From: an uncultured Kangiella sp.
Lineage (GTDB): Bacteria; Pseudomonadota; Gammaproteobacteria; Enterobacterales; Kangiellaceae
NCBI GenBank assembly: GCA_950096615.1
Contig: CATNCP010000005.1
Coordinates: 1-64,000 of the forward strand
Length of the DNA stretch: 64,000 nucleotides
Direction: 5' to 3'
A model generated the notes under the pieces. That model was not told the origin of the DNA. It made no database searches and was given only the letters and a program-made list of their open reading frames with translations. A program made the position numbers and the translations under genes. This document shows, in pieces, positions 3,414 through 12,291 of the stretch (position 1 is the stretch's first letter; each line of letters opens with the position of its first letter).

Positions 3414-4235
3414 ATGACCTTGCCGTCTACCCATAAGAATAAAACGCACTTCCGCACTATCTGGATTTCTGACACTCACCTCGGCAGCAAAGGCTGTCAG
3501 GCTGAATTACTGCTCGAATTTCTCAAGCACATTGAATCCGACAAACTCTATCTGGTCGGTGACATTATCGACTGTTGGCGGTTAAGAAACCGCTGGTATT
3601 GGCCGCAACAACACAATGATGTAGTGCAAAAAATACTGCGTAAAGGACGAAAAGGATGCGACGTTATATTTATCCCTGGCAACCACGATTCTTTAATCCG
3701 TGACTTCGCCAGCATGTCACTGGGCAGTGTTAAAATCCTCGAAGACGACATACATATCACGGCGCAAGGTAAGCGACTTTTAGTGCTACACGGTGATATT
3801 TTCGATAACGTCATGCGCTTTACCCCTTGGCTCGCGACTATTGGCGATCATCTCTATGAGTTTTTGCTGAAACTCAATAGACCCATAAATAAGTTTAGAC
3901 AAAGGTTTGGCAAAGGTTATTGGTCGCTGTCAGCACACCTTAAAATGAAAGTGAAAAATGCGGTCAGCTACATTTCTCAATTCGAGGAAATTGCCTCGGA
4001 CCACGCCAAGAAACAACAAGCCGATGGTATTGTTTGTGGTCATATACACCACGCAGAAATCCGAGAGTTTCACGGAATAGAGTATTATAACGACGGTGAC
4101 TGGGTAGAAAGCTGTACTGCTCTAGCAGAAGATTTCGACGGCAACCTATCCATTCTAAACTGGCATGAGTTGCGCAAGAGCTACATTACTGAAGAAGTTT
4201 CCGATATCGAAATTGCTCACACCGGTCCGCGATAG
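3414..4235 (+). CDS. UDP-2,3-diacylglucosamine diphosphatase-like metallophosphoesterase
   Basis: A 273-residue calcineurin-type phosphoesterase. The five metal-binding blocks are visible in order: SDTHLGS, GDIIDCW, GNHDS, LHGDIFD and GHIHHA. Proteins of this length resemble LpxH and its longer paralogues (COG2908), which hydrolyse UDP-2,3-diacylglucosamine to lipid X or act on related phospho-lipids at the inner membrane. I chose the ATG at 3414 because GAGG lies at 3402-3405. The same frame is open back to 3291, but the residues added there show no domain and the region probably holds the divergent promoters. Whether it is the lipid A enzyme itself or a paralogue cannot be settled from this window. 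Confidence 0.8.
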   Translation: MTLPSTHKNKTHFRTIWISDTHLGSKGCQAELLLEFLKHIESDKLYLVGDIIDCWRLRNRWYWPQQHNDVVQKILRKGRKGCDVIFIPGNHDSLIRDFASMSLGSVKILEDDIHITAQGKRLLVLHGDIFDNVMRFTPWLATIGDHLYEFLLKLNRPINKFRQRFGKGYWSLSAHLKMKVKNAVSYISQFEEIASDHAKKQQADGIVCGHIHHAEIREFHGIEYYNDGDWVESCTALAEDFDGNLSILNWHELRKSYITEEVSDIEIAHTGPR

Positions 4236-4288
4236 AACCATAGGTTATTAAGGCTTATCCGACCAGCAGTGCAATATCTGAAATATAT

Positions 4289-4316
4289 TTGCTTAATGAA
4301 AAAACTGTGCTACTCT
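4289..4316 (+). promoter_or_regulatory. Candidate promoter for the ilv leader
   Basis: TTGCTT at 4289-4294 and TACTCT at 4311-4316 are separated by 16 bases. The -10 is preceded by TG with one intervening base (TGCTACTCT), the extended -10 pattern. This would start transcription near 4323, about 70 bases before the first leader peptide. It is a pattern match only. Confidence 0.35.
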
Positions 4317-4394
4317 CAAATCAAATGCTAAGCGCGCCTTGTGCACGCTTAAAACTTAACGACACATTTAAACGTGACATTGAACAAAAAGACT

Positions 4395-4487
4395 ATGTTT
4401 AAACAAGCCCTAAACATGCTCACTGAGAGCTTAATTGTGATTAACGTCATTGTGGTGATTTTATTACCGCAACGAGGGCGCGTGTGA
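4395..4487 (+). CDS. Branched-chain amino acid leader peptide 1
   Basis: A 30-residue reading frame whose second half is LIVINVIVVILLPQRGRV, a dense run of Leu, Ile and Val codons. This is the hallmark of ilv-type leader peptides, where ribosome stalling on scarce Leu/Ile/Val-tRNA controls transcription. It could also start at the internal ATG at 4416. No convincing Shine-Dalgarno is visible for either start. It is followed directly by a Rho-independent terminator hairpin and lies upstream of ilvC. Codons 27-29 (4473-4479, CGAGGGC) are exactly complementary to the 5' arm of that terminator, giving the antiterminator. A second, similar leader follows at 4651. Confidence 0.8.
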   Translation: MFKQALNMLTESLIVINVIVVILLPQRGRV

Positions 4488-4510
4488 GTTAAGAAGCATA
4501 ATGAATAACC

Positions 4511-4546
4511 AAGCCCTCGAACTGAAAAGTCCGGGGGCTTTTTTTT
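4511..4546 (+). terminator. Attenuator terminator 1 of the ilv leader
   Basis: The arms at 4511-4523 and 4528-4540 form a 13-bp stem with one A-C mismatch and one G-T pair around a GAAA loop. A run of eight T follows (4539-4546). Bases 4513-4519 (GCCCTCG) can pair instead with 4473-4479 (CGAGGGC) at the end of leader peptide 1, forming the alternative antiterminator. Confidence 0.85.
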
Positions 4547-4650
4547 GATTAACCTAAAGTACATTTAACGGATTGGAGGTAAGAAGAAAACTCAAAAGCA
4601 GCGAACGAAGCATAAATAAGTGCAGCAATTTTGAGTAGCTTCTTTAAATT
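4547..4650 (+). promoter_or_regulatory. Spacer between the two attenuators, with an imperfect inverted repeat
   Basis: No gene is seen here. GGAGG at 4575-4579 looks like a ribosome binding site but has no start codon at the right distance. AAGAAG with ACTCAAAA, at about 4582-4598, is mirrored by TTTTGAGT with CTTCTT at about 4629-4646. An RNA hairpin could therefore form just ahead of leader 2, possibly hiding or presenting its start. I see no clear second promoter, so leader 2 is probably transcribed as read-through from unit 1. Confidence 0.35.
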
Positions 4651-4728
4651 ATGAATTTACTAAACTCAATCATTATCGTCGTCTTAATTATTGTGGTGAT
4701 TTTATTACCGCAACGGGGGCGTTATTGA
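4651..4728 (+). CDS. Branched-chain amino acid leader peptide 2
   Basis: A 25-residue reading frame, of which 15 residues are Leu, Ile or Val. It ends VVILLPQRGRY, nearly identical in its last part to leader peptide 1 (VVILLPQRGRV). The underlying DNA is also similar in this part, so the unit arose by duplication. Codons 22-24 (4714-4720, CGGGGGC) are complementary to the 5' arm of the second terminator. The peptide start lacks a strong Shine-Dalgarno. Together with leader 1 it forms a tandem, apparently two-step, attenuation device for the ilv operon. Confidence 0.8.
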   Translation: MNLLNSIIIVVLIIVVILLPQRGRY

Positions 4729-4753
4729 GTTAAGAATTGTCAACTAACAACCG

Positions 4754-4789
4754 AAGCCCCCGCACTGAAAAGTCCGGGGGCTTTTTTTT
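4754..4789 (+). terminator. Attenuator terminator 2 of the ilv leader
   Basis: The arms at 4754-4766 and 4771-4783 pair over 13 bp with a single C-C mismatch around a GAAA loop, followed by eight T (4782-4789). The alternative antiterminator pairs 4714-4720 with 4756-4762. Compared with unit 1, the antiterminator pair has changed on both sides (CGAGGGC/GCCCTCG to CGGGGGC/GCCCCCG), a compensatory change. Confidence 0.87.
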
Positions 4790-4842
4790 GGCACGATTTT
4801 GAGACTTTAACAACACAACTTTATGAAAAGAATGGAGCAACT

Positions 4843-5859
4843 ATGAAAGTTACATACGATACAGATATCAACACAGATACATTGAACGGCAAGAAACTGG
4901 TGGTTTTAGGTTATGGCTCTCAAGGCTACGCCCACTCCAACAACCTAAAAGACAGTGGTTTTGATGTTACCGTTGCCTTACGCAAAGGTTCATCAACGTT
5001 TGAAAAACTGAAGCACAGCAACATGCCCGGGGCCGAGCTTGAAGAAGCCATAAAGGACGCGGACTTGGTTATGATGTTGCTACCGGATGAAAACCAACCG
5101 GATGTTTACAACCAATACCTCGCGCAACATCTAAAGCCCGGTGCCAGTCTTGGCTTTGCCCATGGCTTCAATATCCACTTCGACCAAATCTCTCCTCGTG
5201 ATGACATCAACGTTTTTATGGTTGCACCTAAAGGCCCAGGGCATACCGTTCGCTCAACCTATACCGAAGGAAGCGGTGTTCCCTGCTTAGTCGCAGTGCA
5301 TCAGGACGTCACCGGAGATACCAAAGAGTTAGCCTATGCCTATGCCAGTGCGATTGGCGGCGGACGTGCTGGAGTTATCGAAACCAGCTTTAAAGAAGAA
5401 ACGGAAACAGACTTGTTCGGCGAACAAGCGGTTCTTTGTGGCGGCACCGCAGCACTGGTTCAGGCCGGGTTTGAAACGCTTGTTGAAGCCGGTTACTCAC
5501 CTGAGATGGCTTATTTTGAATGCCTGCACGAATTAAAGCTCATCGTCGATCTGATGTACGAAGGTGGTATCAACACCATGCGTTACTCCATTTCAAATAC
5601 TGCGGAGTATGGCGACCTAACTCGCGGTAATCGTTTAGTGACAGATGAAACTAAAGCATCAATGAAGACCATTTTGTCTGAAATACAAAGTGGGCAATTT
5701 GCTAAAGAGTATGTCGATGATTGTCGCAACGATTACCAAACCTTGCACAAACTACGTCACTCACACTCAGAACATGAGATTGAGGTTGTCGGTGCAAAAC
5801 TGCGCGGCATGATGCCTTGGATTAAGAAGAAACCCTTGGTTGACCAAACCATAAACTAA
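4843..5859 (+). CDS. ilvC: Ketol-acid reductoisomerase, class I
   Basis: A 338-residue NADP-dependent enzyme. It isomerises and reduces acetolactate and acetohydroxybutyrate to the dihydroxy acids, the second common step of valine and isoleucine synthesis. The Rossmann motif is [11 protein letters not shown] near residue 25. The knotted C-terminal domain holds the acidic Mg-binding residues ([12 protein letters not shown], then [15 protein letters not shown]). The length is typical of the short class I form. GGAGCAACT precedes the ATG. It is the first structural gene behind the double attenuator, and acetolactate synthase follows 13 bases after its stop. Confidence 0.95.
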
Positions 5860-5872
5860 TAAAGGTGACGTT

Positions 5873-7597
5873 ATGCGTGGTGCAGACTACTTATTAAAGA
5901 CCCTTAAAGATCATCAGGTTGATACGGTGTTTGGTTACCCTGGTGGAGCCATTATGCCTGTATATGATGCTTTACTCGGCAGCGGTGTCAAACACGTTTT
6001 ATGCCGTCATGAGCAAGGTGCTGTGTTTGCTGCGGACGGCTATGCCCGCTCCAGTGGCAAACTTGGCGTTTGCATCGCAACATCGGGCCCGGGTGCGACA
6101 AATTTAATCACCGGCATTGCCAATGCCCAGATGGACTCAGTGCCGCTATTGGCTATTACTGGCCAAGTTGCTTCTAACCTGATCGGCACTGATGCCTTTC
6201 AGGAAATAGACACCTATGGTTTATCCCTGTCTATTGTAAAACACAGCTACTTGGTCACTCGCATCGAGGATTTACCGCGAATGCTTAATGAGGCGATACA
6301 GTTGGCTCAAAGTGGTCGTCCGGGCCCTGTTCTGATTGATATTGCAAAAGACGTACAAATGGCTGCTATGCCATCAACCAGTCTCGCCTACAGCCATGAG
6401 ATGCGCCCTAAAGCTTTAGCCGAGACGTCGACAAGTACACATGCTGAAGAAGTACAAGCTGCCACCACGTTATTAGCAGCTAGCAAGAAGCCGTTAATTT
6501 ATGCTGGCGGTGGTGTTAATTTGGCGAAAGCTTCTGAGCTACTGACCTCACTGGTAGAGCAGTTTAAGTTACCGACAGTAACCACCCTAAAAGGGATCGG
6601 AGCGCTCCCAAGTTCCCATGCTTATAACCTTGGCATGTTAGGAATGCACGGTACAAAAGCCGCCAATACGGCTGTTCAAGAGTGTGACCTCTTATTAGTC
6701 ACAGGCGCACGCCTGGATGATCGGGCGACTGGTGATTTAAAGCAATTTGCACCTCATGCCAAGGTAATACATATCGATTGTGATCGAGCAGAAGTCAGTA
6801 AGCTGAGATCCGCTGATATCAGTTTAGTGGGCGAGATGCCATCCATACTCACTAGTTTACAGCAGCAATTAGCTACAAAATTTTCTCATGAGACGGCTCA
6901 CGACTGGCGGTATCGGTGCTTGCAAAACAAGGAGCAATTAGCGTTTCGTTACGACGCGCCTTTCGCCACGATTTATGCCCCTGCGTTGCTCAAGAAACTC
7001 TCGGATTATTGCAGTAACCAAAAAGCCATTGTTAGCTGCGATGTTGGTCAGCACCAAATGTGGGTGGCCCAGCACATGCAGTTTAACTCTAGTAGCCACC
7101 ACCTCAGTAGTGGCGGGCTAGGCGCCATGGGTTATGGCCTGCCAGCGGCACTCGGCGCTAAATTTGCCAACCCCGAGCACACTATTATCAATGTGTCTGG
7201 AGACGGCTCCATCATGATGAATATTCAGGAACTGGCAACACTGAAGCGCTATGGCGTCGCCGTGAAGATATTGCTGTTAGATAACCAACGACTCGGCATG
7301 GTTCGCCAGTGGCAAAATTTATTCTTTGAAAAACGCTTTAGCGAAGTAGATCTATCTGACAACCCAGATTTTGTAGAAGTTGCACATGCTTTCGGTATTC
7401 GTAGCAGCAGCATTGATCGCGCGACTCAAGTTGATGCTGCACTTGAAGAGTTTTTAGCCTGCGACGAGAGTTATTTATTACACGTCTCGATCGATCCCGA
7501 TGACAACGTATGGCCACTTGTTCCGCCAGGTAAAAGTAACTCGGATTTCATCGAAGAATCTATCAGTGACACAACTTTTAAGGAGAACAGATTATGA
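5873..7597 (+). CDS. ilvG: Acetolactate synthase large subunit
   Basis: A 574-residue thiamine-diphosphate enzyme that condenses two pyruvates, or pyruvate with 2-oxobutyrate. The N-terminal PYR domain carries VFGYPGGAIMPVYDAL and the catalytic Glu in CRHEQGAVFAADGYAR. The FAD/central domain follows. The C-terminal PP domain has GDGSIMMNIQELATL and DNQRLGMVRQWQ. The pairing with a short IlvM-like small subunit suggests the IlvGM isozyme type, but IlvB/IlvI are very similar and the letter is a judgement. Its stop overlaps the next ATG by four bases (ATGA), so the two subunits are translationally coupled. Confidence 0.93.
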   Translation: MRGADYLLKTLKDHQVDTVFGYPGGAIMPVYDALLGSGVKHVLCRHEQGAVFAADGYARSSGKLGVCIATSGPGATNLITGIANAQMDSVPLLAITGQVASNLIGTDAFQEIDTYGLSLSIVKHSYLVTRIEDLPRMLNEAIQLAQSGRPGPVLIDIAKDVQMAAMPSTSLAYSHEMRPKALAETSTSTHAEEVQAATTLLAASKKPLIYAGGGVNLAKASELLTSLVEQFKLPTVTTLKGIGALPSSHAYNLGMLGMHGTKAANTAVQECDLLLVTGARLDDRATGDLKQFAPHAKVIHIDCDRAEVSKLRSADISLVGEMPSILTSLQQQLATKFSHETAHDWRYRCLQNKEQLAFRYDAPFATIYAPALLKKLSDYCSNQKAIVSCDVGQHQMWVAQHMQFNSSSHHLSSGGLGAMGYGLPAALGAKFANPEHTIINVSGDGSIMMNIQELATLKRYGVAVKILLLDNQRLGMVRQWQNLFFEKRFSEVDLSDNPDFVEVAHAFGIRSSSIDRATQVDAALEEFLACDESYLLHVSIDPDDNVWPLVPPGKSNSDFIEESISDTTFKENRL

Positions 7598-7860
7598 GCA
7601 CCAGCACTTTTAAAATCATTGTTCGACAATCCACTGGAAGCTTGGAACGTATTTTGCGCCTCGTAAGGCATCGCGGGTTTGACGTGAATTATTGTTTAGC
7701 GCGTGAAGAACTTTTGGAAAATGGTATGAGCGTCACCTTACAACTCAGTAGCGATCGCTCGACTGATAACCTTTATCATCAATTACATAAGTTGGTTGAC
7801 GTGGTCGAAGTTCATCTTGCCACGCCGTCTCGCTTGAGGAGTTGTCTGGGCAATGAGTAA
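7594..7860 (+). CDS. ilvM: Acetolactate synthase small (regulatory) subunit, IlvM type
   Basis: An 88-residue protein made of one ACT domain (FKIIVRQSTGSLERILRLVRHRGFDV, interrupted only by ordinary variation). Its length matches IlvM and is about half that of IlvN/IlvH. It binds and activates the large subunit. Its coding region overlaps the large-subunit gene by four bases and the citramalate synthase gene by eight, so the three proteins are made in a coupled series. Confidence 0.88.
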   Translation: MSTSTFKIIVRQSTGSLERILRLVRHRGFDVNYCLAREELLENGMSVTLQLSSDRSTDNLYHQLHKLVDVVEVHLATPSRLRSCLGNE

Positions 7861-9535
7861 GCAACTTTATGTTTACGACACCACGCTACGTGACGGTGCT
7901 CAATACAGAGGCATTAGCTTTTCGCTTCAAGACAAGCTCAAGATCACGCAGCTGCTGGATAATTTTGGTGTTGATTATATCGAAGGTGGATGGCCAGGCT
8001 CCAACCCTAAAGACGAGGCGTATTTTAAGCACGCTAAAAACCTCGGTCTTAAGCATGCAAAATTAGTGGCGTTTGGTTCTACACGAAAGCCCATGCTAGA
8101 GGTTGATAATGACCCGCAAATTCAGTCGTTACTTTCTGCTAATACGCCAGCAGTGGCATTGGTCAGTAAATTTTGGACGTTTCATATTGAGACAGTATTA
8201 CGGACTGACTTAACACAAAACCTCAGTATGATTTACGATAGTGTTGCCTTCTTCAAAGCTCATGGCCGTGAAGTTGTACTAGATGCTGAGCATTTTTTTG
8301 ATGGTTTTAAAGATAATCAGGACTATACATTTCAGTGCATCGAGGCAGCAGTAAGAGCTGGTGTAGACAACTTAACTTTGTGCGACACCAACGGCGGAAG
8401 TATGCCGCAAGATATTGAGTATGCTGTCAAAGCAGTCCGCAATAAGTTTCCAACACTATCCTTAGGAATCCACTGTCATAACGATTGTGAGCTGGCTGTT
8501 GCCAATAGTTTGTCAGCCGTTAAATCAGGCGTGAGCTTACTACAGGGAACGATTAACGGTTACGGCGAACGATGCGGTAATGCCAACTTAATTTCGTTAC
8601 TAGCAAACCTGTTGTTGAAGCAAAGTTTTAACCAAGAGTTTGGCCTAAATTCTGATATCACAAGTGAGCGTTTATCTGACTTGTCTAAAGAGATAGCCGA
8701 TATCGCCAACATACCACTCAAGGCTGATGCTGCGTATGTTGGTGATAATGCTTTTAGTCATAAAGGTGGTATCCACGTTGCTGCTATCGCTAAAGCCTCA
8801 CAGACTTATGAACATCTTAATCCTAGCTTAGTCGGTAACCAACGCGAGATTACTATTTCTGAGTTATCGGGCAAATCAAACGTTCAGCTTCAAGCCCAAA
8901 AGCTTGGCCTAGATGTATCGCGTAATTTTCAACAAGTACTCGACAGTATTAAGGCGTTAGAGAAGAAGGGGCTAACGCTAGAAAACGCGCCCGGATCTTT
9001 TGAAATGCTGGTACGAAAGCAGGATAAATCTTATCAGCCACACTTTACTGTGCTTAGTATGCAAGTTGGGGTCAACGATATGAACGCATCAACTCAACCC
9101 AATGCCGATACGTGTACCGCAACAGTTAAAGTTCGAGTTAAAAATAAAATTGCACATGTAGTTGAAGAGGCTTCTGGTCCGGTTGACGCGCTTAATCTAG
9201 CATTTAAAAAAGCATTAACGAGTTTTTTCCCACAGGTTCAAGCCATGCAACTGACCGACTATAAAGTATCTATTCTTGATCCTGAAAAGGCCTCAGCGGC
9301 AACCACTCGGGTGTGGATACAATCTTGCTACAAAGACTTCATTGCGAATGATCAGTGCTGGGCGACCATCGGTTGCTCCGACAATATCATAAAAGCTAGC
9401 GCACAAGCTTTAATTGATAGCTATCAATTATTTTTAATAAAACACAACCATTTATCGCAGAACTCAGCACACCAATCTGCGCAACATAGATTTTCAGATT
9501 TAGACAATGAGGTGACACACAATGGCCACAATTAA
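7853..9535 (+). CDS. cimA: (R)-citramalate synthase, CimA type
   Basis: A 560-residue member of the isopropylmalate/homocitrate/citramalate synthase family. The HMGL-like TIM barrel opens with YDTTLRDGAQYRG and VDYIEGGWPGSNPKD. The WPGSNPKD motif is characteristic of the citramalate branch (TIGR00977-like) as opposed to LeuA. Metal ligands appear in GIHCHNDCELAVANS, and GGIHVAAI closes the barrel. The C-terminal third is the LeuA-type allosteric domain (after SFEMLVRKQ). The predicted reaction is pyruvate plus acetyl-CoA to citramalate, feeding 2-oxobutyrate through LeuCDB and bypassing threonine deaminase. Its place between ilvM and ilvE supports a role in isoleucine synthesis. It overlaps both neighbours (eight and 14 bases). 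Confidence 0.88.
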   Translation: MSKQLYVYDTTLRDGAQYRGISFSLQDKLKITQLLDNFGVDYIEGGWPGSNPKDEAYFKHAKNLGLKHAKLVAFGSTRKPMLEVDNDPQIQSLLSANTPAVALVSKFWTFHIETVLRTDLTQNLSMIYDSVAFFKAHGREVVLDAEHFFDGFKDNQDYTFQCIEAAVRAGVDNLTLCDTNGGSMPQDIEYAVKAVRNKFPTLSLGIHCHNDCELAVANSLSAVKSGVSLLQGTINGYGERCGNANLISLLANLLLKQSFNQEFGLNSDITSERLSDLSKEIADIANIPLKADAAYVGDNAFSHKGGIHVAAIAKASQTYEHLNPSLVGNQREITISELSGKSNVQLQAQKLGLDVSRNFQQVLDSIKALEKKGLTLENAPGSFEMLVRKQDKSYQPHFTVLSMQVGVNDMNASTQPNADTCTATVKVRVKNKIAHVVEEASGPVDALNLAFKKALTSFFPQVQAMQLTDYKVSILDPEKASAATTRVWIQSCYKDFIANDQCWATIGCSDNIIKASAQALIDSYQLFLIKHNHLSQNSAHQSAQHRFSDLDNEVTHNGHN

Positions 9536-10472
9536 TCCACCACAACATATATGGTTCAATGGTAAAACAGTACCCTGGCAAGACGCTCAAGTTCATGTCT
9601 TAAGCCATGCGATTCACTACGGTTCTTCCGTATTTGAAGGTATCCGCTGTTACGAAACCAGCAAAGGCCCTGCTTTTTTTAGGCTAAGAGAGCACGTAGA
9701 GCGTTTGTACCTTTCGGCAAAGATATACCGTATGAATATTCCATACTCTTTTGATGAATTGCTACAAGCATGTCATGAAGTTGTCAGTAAAAATGATTTA
9801 AGCAATGCCTATCTACGTCCTGTCGCTTTTTTTGGATATGGTTCGATTGGCGTTAACCCTGAACAAAATCCAGTTGAGGTTTCTATCGCTGCCTTTCCCT
9901 GGGATTCTTATCTGGGTAATGAGTCTATTGAAAACGGCGTTGATGTTTGTATTTCCTCTTGGAATCGCGTCGCTCCTAACACGATCCCGGCAGCAGCTAA
10001 AGCTGGTGGTAATTATTTATCTTCTCAACTAATTGTCGAAGAAGCCACGCGCAAAGGTTACGTCGAAGGTATCGCGTTGGATGTTAATGGCTATATCTCA
10101 GAAGGCTCGGGGGAAAATGTATTTGTGGTTAAAGATAACACTTTATACACACCACCGTTTACGGCTTCTATCTTGCCGGGAATCACCCGTGACACGGTTA
10201 TGACGCTAGCCCGAAAAATGGGTTACGACGTTATAGAACAGAATATGACTCGAGAGGCACTGTATCTAGCGGACGAAGCCTTCATGACAGGTACAGCAGC
10301 GGAAATTGTGCCCATAAAAAGTGTTGATGACTTATTGGTCGGTTCGGGTTCTCGTGGGCCTATCACTCAACAATTGCAACACGCTTTTTTTGGCCTCTTC
10401 AAAGGCACCACTCCTGATGAGCATGGCTGGCTTGAGGTGGTTGATACTGTAAAGGACAAAGCTTATGCCTGA
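9522..10472 (+). CDS. ilvE: Branched-chain amino acid aminotransferase
   Basis: A 316-residue class IV PLP aminotransferase that makes Val, Ile and Leu from their 2-oxo acids with glutamate. It shows [19 protein letters not shown], then [14 protein letters not shown], and the PLP phosphate-binding [20 protein letters not shown] (interrupted here for length). [12 protein letters not shown] and [12 protein letters not shown] complete the signature. The length is the usual one. The start overlaps the end of the citramalate synthase gene, and its own end overlaps ilvD by eight bases. Confidence 0.94.
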
Positions 10473-12291
10473 TTATCGTTCAAAGCGCTCAACTCATGGC
10501 CGCAATATGGCCGGTGCTCGTGCCTTATGGCGAGCGACTGGCGTAAAAGATGATGACTTCGGTAAACCCATCATTGCCGTATGTAATTCATTCACTCAAT
10601 TCGTTCCAGGCCATGTTCACTTGAAAGATATGGGGCAGCTGGTCGCGCGTGAAATTGAAAAGGCTGGTGGCATAGCCAAAGAGTTTAATACCATCGCAGT
10701 TGATGATGGTATCGCCATGGGGCATGAAGGGATGCTGTACTCCCTACCGTCACGCGAAATTATTGCTGACTCTGTTGAGTACATGGCAAACGCCCATTGT
10801 GCTGATGCGTTGGTCTGTATTTCTAACTGCGACAAAATTACGCCGGGAATGTTGTTGGCAGCAATGCGCCTTAATATCCCCGCGATCTTTGTCTCGGGAG
10901 GCCCCATGGAAGCAGGCAAAACCAAGCTTTCCGCTCAATTAATCAAACTTGATCTGGTCGATGCCATGGTTGCAGCCGCCGATGACTCCATCAGCGATGA
11001 AGACAGTGAGCAAGTCGAGCGCAGCGCTTGTCCTACGTGTGGCTCATGCTCTGGAATGTTTACAGCAAATTCCATGAATTGCTTAACGGAGGCGTTGGGG
11101 CTTGCTCTACCTGGTAACGGCTCGCTATTAGCCACCCATGCTTCGCGCAAACACTTGTTCTTAAAAGCTGGGCGACAGATTGTTGAGCTCTGCAAAAGCT
11201 ATTATCAAAACGACGACCACTCGGTGCTGCCACGGAATATTGCCAACCGAAAATCATTTTTTAACGCCATGAGTCTGGATATCGCTATGGGCGGCTCTAC
11301 CAATACGGTCCTGCATCTTCTAGCTGCAGCCTATGAGGGAGAGGTCGACTTCTCGCTGCAAGATATTGATCGGTTATCGCGACAAGTTCCGAACCTCTGT
11401 AAAGTAGCGCCCGCCACCAAAAACTACCATATGGAAGATGTTCATCGTGCCGGTGGCGTTATGGCAATTCTGGGTGAGCTTAAGCGTGCAAACTTACTAA
11501 ACTCTAACCAACCGACCGTGTTGCAAAAAACCATTGGCAACGTTATTGATGAGTGGGACATCATCACCGCCAAGAGTGATGCCATAAAGAAGCTGTATCG
11601 CGCTGGGCCAGCAGGAATTCCAACTCAGCAAGCCTTTAGCCAAGATTGCCACTATGACACGCTTGACGATGATCGTGAGCATGGTTGCGTTCGGAGCATT
11701 GATAACGCCTACAGTAAAGATGGGGGCTTGGCTGTGCTTTACGGCAACCTGGCTCCTAATGGTAGCATCATTAAAACCGCGGCAGTCCCTGAGCGGTTAT
11801 TAAGCTTTACTGGACCAGCTCGCGTTTTCGAATGCCAAGACAGCGCGGTTGAAGCAATCTTAGGTAACCAGATCCAAAAAGGTGATGCCGTGATTATCCG
11901 CTACGAAGGGCCCTCTGGTGGCCCCGGTATGCAAGAAATGCTGTACCCAACCAGTTATTTAAAATCTAAAGGGCTTGATCAAGATTGCGCCTTAATCACT
12001 GATGGCCGATTCTCTGGCGGTACATCAGGCTTGTCGATAGGTCACGTATCGCCCGAAGCCGCTAGTGAAGGCATGATTGGCTTAGTTGAGGATGGCGATA
12101 TTGTTCACATAGACATTCCCAGTAGGCTTTTGGAATTGCAGGTAAAACCGTCAATATTAGAGTCGCGCCGACGTCAGCAATCAGAGAAAGCTTGGCAGCC
12201 CTACTCTAGAAATAGACACGTTTCTACCTCACTGAAAGTCTACGCCAGACATGCGTTGAGTGCCGACAAAGGCGCTGTGCGAGTAGTCTAG
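10465..12291 (+). CDS. ilvD: Dihydroxy-acid dehydratase
   Basis: A 608-residue Fe-S dehydratase of the IlvD/Edd family, catalysing the third common step of Val/Ile synthesis. Cluster and Mg motifs are visible: [34 protein letters not shown], and near the C-terminus [19 protein letters not shown]. The length is close to the 616 residues of the Escherichia coli enzyme. It is the last gene of the operon and is followed by a strong terminator at 12302. Confidence 0.95.

Follow-up and report, generated by a model that had tools for sequence, protein, structure and literature searches.

The ilvC-led branched-chain amino acid (BCAA) operon of an uncultured Kangiella sp., a marine bacterium, is preceded by two leader-peptide units, arranged one behind the other, in the window (the whole 64,000-nucleotide stretch of DNA analyzed). 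Serial double attenuation of the operon, with both units responding to the same signal, is in our judgment the best explanation of this arrangement and a probable one. The evidence comes from the anatomy of the units, their conservation with compensatory changes, the control codons that the two leaders share, and the presence of a second pair at hisG.

Anatomy of the leader units and the operon downstream

The original prediction placed two serial leader/attenuator units before ilvC at positions 4395 to 4789, and its coordinates and letters were found to agree with the sequence to the base, including the exact pairings of CGAGGGC (4473 to 4479) with GCCCTCG (4513 to 4519) and of CGGGGGC (4714 to 4720) with GCCCCCG (4756 to 4762). 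All features described here are on the forward strand. Unit 1 is composed of (i) leader peptide 1 (4395 to 4487; 30 aa, MFKQALNMLTESLIVINVIVVILLPQRGRV), which has the C-terminal end VVILLPQRGRV and a frame that is found here in 9/9 genomes; (ii) the P1 hairpin (4450 to 4472; UUGUGGUGAU / AUUACCGCAA), made of control codons; (iii) antiterminator strand 2 (CGAGGGC); and (iv) a predicted intrinsic terminator (terminator 1, 4511 to 4546; −17.8 kcal/mol), the 5′ arm of which (GCCCTCG) doubles as antiterminator strand 3. Unit 2 is composed of leader peptide 2 (4651 to 4728; 25 aa, MNLLNSIIIVVLIIVVILLPQRGRY) with the C-terminal end VVILLPQRGRY, a P1 hairpin (4691 to 4713) formed by the Ile/Val/Leu codons themselves, strand 2 (CGGGGGC), and predicted intrinsic terminator 2 (4754 to 4789; −20.9 kcal/mol), with GCCCCCG as the arm that doubles as strand 3. 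Antiterminator strand 2 begins directly after P1 in both units, and both terminators have an ACU-GAAA-AGU tip. The units are direct repeats of one another, with blocks of 47 nt (89%) and 37 nt (95%) at an offset of 241 to 243 nt. Leu, Ile, and Val make up 14 of the 30 residues of leader 1 and 15 of the 25 residues of leader 2 (P = 2.6 × 10−3 and 5.1 × 10−5, respectively) versus 22% of those encoded by seven neighboring genes. When folded, the leader RNA was found to be more stable than shuffled sequences (z −4.4, 0/100 as good). An Rfam scan over both units identified no family at its gathering score; the top-scoring families under that threshold were His_leader and Rev39_5p_UTR, with the window units reaching 25.8 and 24.3 bits and locus L012 36.5 bits of the 49 bits set for His_leader (RF00514). 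Judged by these sequence features, both units look like real ribosome-mediated attenuators.

The pair is followed by tightly spaced genes in the order ilvC (4843 to 5859; KARI_N and KARI_C domains), an ilvG-like gene for the acetolactate synthase large subunit (5873 to 7597; three TPP enzyme domains), an ilvM-like gene for the small subunit (7594 to 7860; 88 aa, named from position and size only), a cimA-like citramalate synthase gene (7853 to 9535; HMGL-like, HCS_D2, and LeuA_dimer domains), an ilvE-like aminotransferase gene (9522 to 10472; Aminotran_4), and ilvD (10465 to 12291; ILVD_EDD_N and ILV_EDD_C). The name of the cimA-like gene was deduced from domains and context, and its product scores below the leuA_bact cut-off. 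Its presence in the operon fits the lack of threonine dehydratase that the available part of a comparative study describes for all Kangiella genomes studied (PMC6000758). IlvC of the relative G007 is 97% identical to that of the window.

Conservation of the pair and of its helices

The genus was represented by 20 Kangiella genomes, 18 of them at least 90% complete, with the window genome as G000. ilvC was detected in 9/20 and is absent from 9 of the 18 that are at least 90% complete; all nine ilvC-bearing genomes carry the serial BCAA pair. The leader frames of both units are kept in these genomes (9/9 Kangiella genomes, 18/18 units): a putative ATG leader frame with 13 to 18 I/V/L residues is present in every unit (P = 5.1 × 10−5 to 3.7 × 10−3 per unit), as is a terminator stem with a U-run, the stem cells being 99.5% paired.

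The helices were found to be conserved with compensatory change. Over the 18 genus units, P1 and the terminator are 97.0% paired versus at most 54.9% when slid, and three of their pairs have a two-sided change, a number reached by 4/500 shuffles; the number of pair types in these helices was not above that of shuffles (260/500). The antiterminator has 92.1% of its cells paired versus at most 61.9% when slid. It has one pair with a two-sided change, in 5 units, and since 435/500 shuffles reach that pair count, the antiterminator is supported instead by the percentage paired and the cell count (0/500 each). The covariation between units of one genome that had been claimed is limited to a single base pair (A-U versus G-C). 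Across the 18 units of nine species, 5 have A-U and 13 have G-C at this pair; the five A-U units may have a common origin in one event. In these five, that U forms a U.G wobble in the terminator, so that the antiterminator pairing was preserved at the expense of the terminator. At the level of the order, a two-sided change was found in 18/22 pairs of P1 and the terminator among 35 units, in an alignment fitted to that structure, and the 7-pair main stem of P1 has 94.5% of its cells paired; within the genus, unit 1 of G009 has a U-A to A-U swap in P1. Two further ideas on the relationship of the units were set aside. Orthogonality of the antiterminators (A-U versus G-C) as insulation from cross-pairing was dropped, as it holds in 5/9 genomes: the own pairings beat both cross pairings in G000, G001, G005, G007, and G009 and not in G004, G008, G015, and G018, a strand pairing equally well or better with the other unit in 4/9 genomes. 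Concerted evolution or gene conversion between units is not claimed; the deep branches of the unit tree are poorly resolved, and mean likeness was 0.71 and 0.75 for same-position units versus 0.68 for units 1 and 2 of different genomes.

The conservation of unit 1 also bears on the possibility that a single unit regulates (probably unit 2), the other being vestigial or no more than an insulating terminator. In 8/9 genomes the weaker terminator is that of unit 1, and G016, which has no ilvC match, keeps one BCAA unit (L123) 5′ of ilvM-like and ilvE-like frames, apparently as a remnant of the operon; both points would suit a single working unit. However, the leader frame, P1, antiterminator, and terminator of unit 1 are kept in 9/9 genomes with changes that preserve the pairing, and we regard this alternative as unlikely.

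Outside the genus, a single unit was identified before ilvC in G024 (same family) and in G049 and G094 (same order). Two models were used in the search, R1, built from the 18 genus units, and the broader R2. R1 matched in 116/198 relatives. R2 matched in 235/394 genomes of the order, some of the matches being his leaders and 11 of the 235 genomes being Kangiella, and in 12/369 genomes of the class, two of which (G000 and one more) belong to the order. By sequence, the unit appears to be homologous across the order and of the ilvG type. The next gene was found by eye to encode the acetolactate synthase large subunit at 18/21 loci read, the remaining three being L128 (the ilvC case of G094), L123 of G016, and L138. 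R2 had no match at E 0.01 on 80 named ilvC loci of other bacteria, and an ilvG-type unit 5′ of ilvC is therefore not general. No serial pair of full units on one strand was found among the 224 R2-matching genomes of the order outside Kangiella, with one match in G622 unlocated, in a strictly filtered search whose model had been trained on Kangiella units and single units and which a diverged partner could escape. Twenty-three of these 224 genomes had at least two R2 matches; 17 were re-searched, and the other six were placed from earlier matches. The assertion that a tandem arrangement is unusual thus holds among the relatives searched (9/9 Kangiella; no pair in 224 others). In G039 (L185, about 551 to 800), a single BCAA leader is followed by two serial intrinsic terminators before an ilvG-like gene, an arrangement that would be a double lock of another kind.

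Similar control codons and a proposed serial mode of action

The codons at which stalling would leave the antiterminator strand free were pooled over nine species, and the I/V/L counts were found to be alike, at 45/37/27 in unit 1 and 47/40/21 in unit 2. This result does not support the suggestion that unit 2 answers other amino acids. Sensing of different amino acids by the two units, with a two-input logic as in mgtCBR, would be in keeping with the somewhat greater number of pooled Leu codons in unit 1 (27 versus 21) and with leaders of unequal length, that of unit 2 being shorter and denser; we give this reading a low probability, as pooled Ile and Val are near equal (45/37 versus 47/40) and ATT GTG GTG ATT TTA TTA is common to 14/18 units. 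In a stall model with an assumed ribosome footprint, the antiterminator strand is predicted to stay free with the A site at any codon as far as Ile 4458 (unit 1) or Ile 4699 (unit 2); the Leu codon that follows gave 0.65 and 0.59, respectively, and the strand was covered from the last Leu codon onward. These limits suggest that Ile and Val would be the main signals. When the full-length RNA was folded, the model always favored the terminator over the antiterminator, and the switch must therefore be kinetic; in classical attenuation the choice between the structures is likewise made in time.

The peptide end itself was also considered as the signal. Nascent-peptide arrest by the C-terminal VVILLPQRGR, instead of codon starvation, would account for this end being the best-conserved part of the leader within the genus, yet at the RNA level the same stretch forms P1 and the antiterminator strand. 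Moreover, unit 2 of G004 has its peptide end out of frame (LLTATGVYA) with CCGCAACGGGGG kept, such that the RNA and not the peptide end seems to be constrained, and PQGG is found in G008 and G009 unit 2; arrest is on this evidence very improbable. Equally slight is the chance that the terminated leaders work mainly in trans, as peptides or small RNAs, and only secondarily by attenuation. Trans-acting leader RNAs occur in rhizobia, and termination in either unit would release a short RNA whose 3′ stem is strong (−17.8 and −20.9 kcal/mol), while the conservation of the codon runs fits control in cis.

Whether the units would lie on one transcript was assessed from the spacer between the U-tract of terminator 1 and the second ATG, which measures 16 to 32 nt in three species (G015, G008, and G004) and 100 to 183 nt in the other six. 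The 16- to 32-nt spacers are too short for a second promoter, and the units there should therefore be serial on one transcript. Upstream of unit 1, a tentative promoter-like stretch was noted at 4288 to 4316 (TTTGCTT ... TGTGCTACTCT). A related pattern is present 56 to 118 nt 5′ of the unit 1 ATG in 6/9 genomes and in 0/9 inter-unit stretches, with G000 itself having no match. A general sigma-70 scan of 4200 to 4900 found no site, and the evidence for the proposed first promoter is therefore weak as well. Two promoters with one attenuator each, for which the 100- to 183-nt spacers of six species would provide room, are improbable in light of the short spacers of the other three, the distribution of the promoter-like pattern, and the lack of a sigma-70-like site in the region scanned.

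The long spacer of the window was found to contain an orphan Shine-Dalgarno GGAGG (4575 to 4579) with no start codon within reach, followed by an inter-unit stem (4581 to 4644) in which AAGAAG (4581 to 4586) pairs with CTTCTT (4639 to 4644) and ACTCAAAA (4590 to 4597) with TTTTGAGT (4629 to 4636). The stem would place the orphan Shine-Dalgarno at a distance of about 7 nt from the leader 2 AUG (4651). The long-spacer species (6/6) all have an orphan GGAG or GAGG, 68 to 151 nt 5′ of the AUG of the second BCAA leader, and in each of them the sequence that follows it is able to pair with the sequence immediately 5′ of this AUG; three of the six are close relatives, and one (G007) has an uncompensated mismatch. 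Shuffles as good as the observed pairing numbered 0, 1, 1, 8, 4, and 4 of 200 in the six species (0/200 in G000). The stem is predicted, yet the fold energy is ordinary (z −0.57 and −1.71). The modeled stem may thus bring the orphan Shine-Dalgarno to the AUG of leader 2 in six species; stem-bridged ribosome-binding sites occur in T4-like phages. In L006 (G001), the inter-unit stem has about 80 extra bases in its loop and two intact arms. More generally, the Shine-Dalgarno sequences 5′ of the BCAA leaders are weak or displaced.

The state without translation was examined by folding, with results that shift with the amount of upstream sequence folded. For the antiterminator of G000 unit 1, the value was 0.19 under one setting, compared with 5.8 expected paired nt under another. 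Strand 2 of G001 unit 1 and of G009 unit 2 favored upstream partners; the row for G008 unit 2 was left out (strand 2 misplaced). P1 of G000 stops directly before strand 2 and so does not sequester it. In unit 1, an upstream GCCC may instead provide the protector pairing in place of P1, on which the two folding settings agree in part. Early in leader 1, GCCCU (4407 to 4411) can pair with AGGGC (4475 to 4479) of the antiterminator strand. Five species retain CAAGCCCT or AAAGCCCT, which the other four lack.

Based on the above, we propose that the operon is controlled by two ribosome-mediated transcription attenuators in series on one transcript, which would sense the charging of the same tRNAs (those for Ile and Val; Leu less clearly). 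In a fed cell, the ribosome would reach the leader stop codon and cover the antiterminator strand, such that the terminator forms and RNA polymerase leaves; in a starved cell, the ribosome would stall at the Ile/Val codons and leave the strand free to pair with the emerging 5′ arm of the terminator, resulting in read-through. The polymerase would have to pass both units, and full expression would be expected only if both leaders stall (an AND gate). The leak in the fed state would be the product of two leak rates and the fold range would be roughly squared, with the first unit usually the weaker lock. The earlier suggestion of multiplied repression accordingly stands as the best reading of a serial pair with the same signal, while the multiplication itself is inferred.

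A second pair at hisG and known systems

Weak R2 matches in the ilvC-less Kangiella genomes led to two His-codon leaders, with a terminator each, before hisG. This gene is present in 19/20 genus genomes (G002, 55% complete, is without it), and the His leader pair precedes it in 19/19 (L183, L184, L189 to L206, and L210), with 18 genomes identified by script and the first leader of G017, MKLFSTNKHHSNHHDFFMGLV, read by eye. The his model R3 had two adjacent matches in these 19 Kangiella genomes, where matches are expected by construction, as R3 was built from 28 Kangiella units (15/19 genomes) and 11 units of relatives; among the 109 genomes searched, an adjacent pair was found in 0/37 other matching genomes outside Kangiella. 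By the same script, 11/11 relatives outside the genus have one His leader and one terminator adjoining hisG, with a further stem flagged in 4/11 (the His-codon hairpin itself in three, far upstream in one). The His-codon hairpin and terminator of the 39 his units are 96.5% paired versus at most 57.3% when slid. In 19/19 genomes the own antiterminator duplex of unit 2 is the stronger of the two, and it beats shuffles in 19/19 (at most 5/200), whereas the unit 1 antiterminator clearly beats shuffles (at most 5/200) in only 5/19, and the unit 1 strand pairs better with the unit 2 arm in 5/19 (G004, G008, G011, G013, and G016). Terminator 1 is the weaker in 16/19. The his pair, as read from these alignments and folds, is clear in its leaders and terminators; its unit 1 antiterminator is not established. 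At L204, L196, and L210, the Kangiella his units had no His_leader match at E 0.1.

Other amino acid operons of Kangiella were also surveyed. At thr (8 loci examined of 20), one leader and one terminator were found in 7 and none in G009; the seven (L219 to L225), each in a different Kangiella genome and upstream of thrA-like genes, each have a single leader in which Thr codons occur in runs, together with one terminator. None of the 20 leuA loci had a Leu-rich ATG frame with a terminator after it. Two TTG frames with LLL are present at leuA of G009, with no terminator after them, and stems located 168 to 192 nt upstream in 16/20 loci were not counted as attenuators. At the 12 of 30 trpE/pabB-like loci examined, no leader with Trp and an accompanying terminator was found; one TTG frame each was noted in G003 and G014.

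E. coli ilvGMEDA is under leader-peptide attenuation, and attenuators of this kind are described for ilvG, ilvI, leuA, and hisG of Shewanella (as presented in the available part of PMC2659441 for the latter). The gammaproteobacterial ilvG/hisG attenuators share with the Kangiella units a product-rich leader, a hairpin of the codon run (anti-antiterminator), an antiterminator, and an intrinsic terminator; they differ in that each operon of the relatives examined has a single unit, compared with two in series in Kangiella, where moreover the BCAA pair precedes an ilvC-led operon with a cimA-like gene. Salmonella mgtCBR likewise has two serial leader ORFs and attenuation in one operon, but mgtM and mgtP are described as answering ATP and proline, additively, and its stem-loops as unlike intrinsic terminators (PMC3641672, in the part available), in contrast to the same amino acids and the two predicted intrinsic terminators of Kangiella; with their similar I/V/L make-up, the BCAA units do not appear to be a two-signal pair of the mgtCBR type. 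In mefA/msrD, two ribosome-mediated attenuators are found in one operon, termed a double-lock system against basal expression by its authors; unlike in Kangiella, the system is macrolide-induced, and the second attenuator controls msrD alone, according to the sections available (PMC10314930). Tandem riboswitches are similar as serial RNA switches that act as logic gates (PMC5912903; B. clausii metE, PMC3641672) but are described in these sources as binding the metabolite directly, without leader translation. In ermB, two leader peptides precede one gene, where the attenuation described is translational and drug-induced (PMC8274638). Of these, mgtCBR and mefA/msrD are the closest precedents, with ermB another near case. 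An amino acid biosynthetic operon with two same-signal leader-peptide attenuators was not found among the matches listed in the open-licence literature, and an earlier mention is possible.

Amino acid attenuators are known as single switches (trp, his). A genus with doubled attenuators at two operons, whose examined relatives have single ones, offers a natural experiment on the second lock, from which lower leak, a steeper response, or both might be gained. Single attenuators are described in theory as hyper-sensitive (PMC1183508), and this theory, as far as the available text sets it out, could be extended to the double attenuator and tested on it. Of five Kangiella strains, the branched-chain gene cluster is reported for K. 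geojedonensis KCTC 23420 only, and double attenuation fits the protein/peptide diet of Kangiella and the lack of BCAA synthesis in 4/5 strains, as given in the part of the report available (PMC6000758). The his and ilv pairs together suggest that costly amino acid synthesis is under a double lock of unusual tightness. We tentatively suggest, with the balance tilting slightly against the proposal in its entirety, that serial same-signal attenuation is a genus-level design of Kangiella at the unrelated his and ilv operons and not at thr, that it would square the repression ratio in these peptide-feeders, and that six species may bridge the Shine-Dalgarno, across 68 to 151 nt, to the AUG of leader 2 by a conserved stem.
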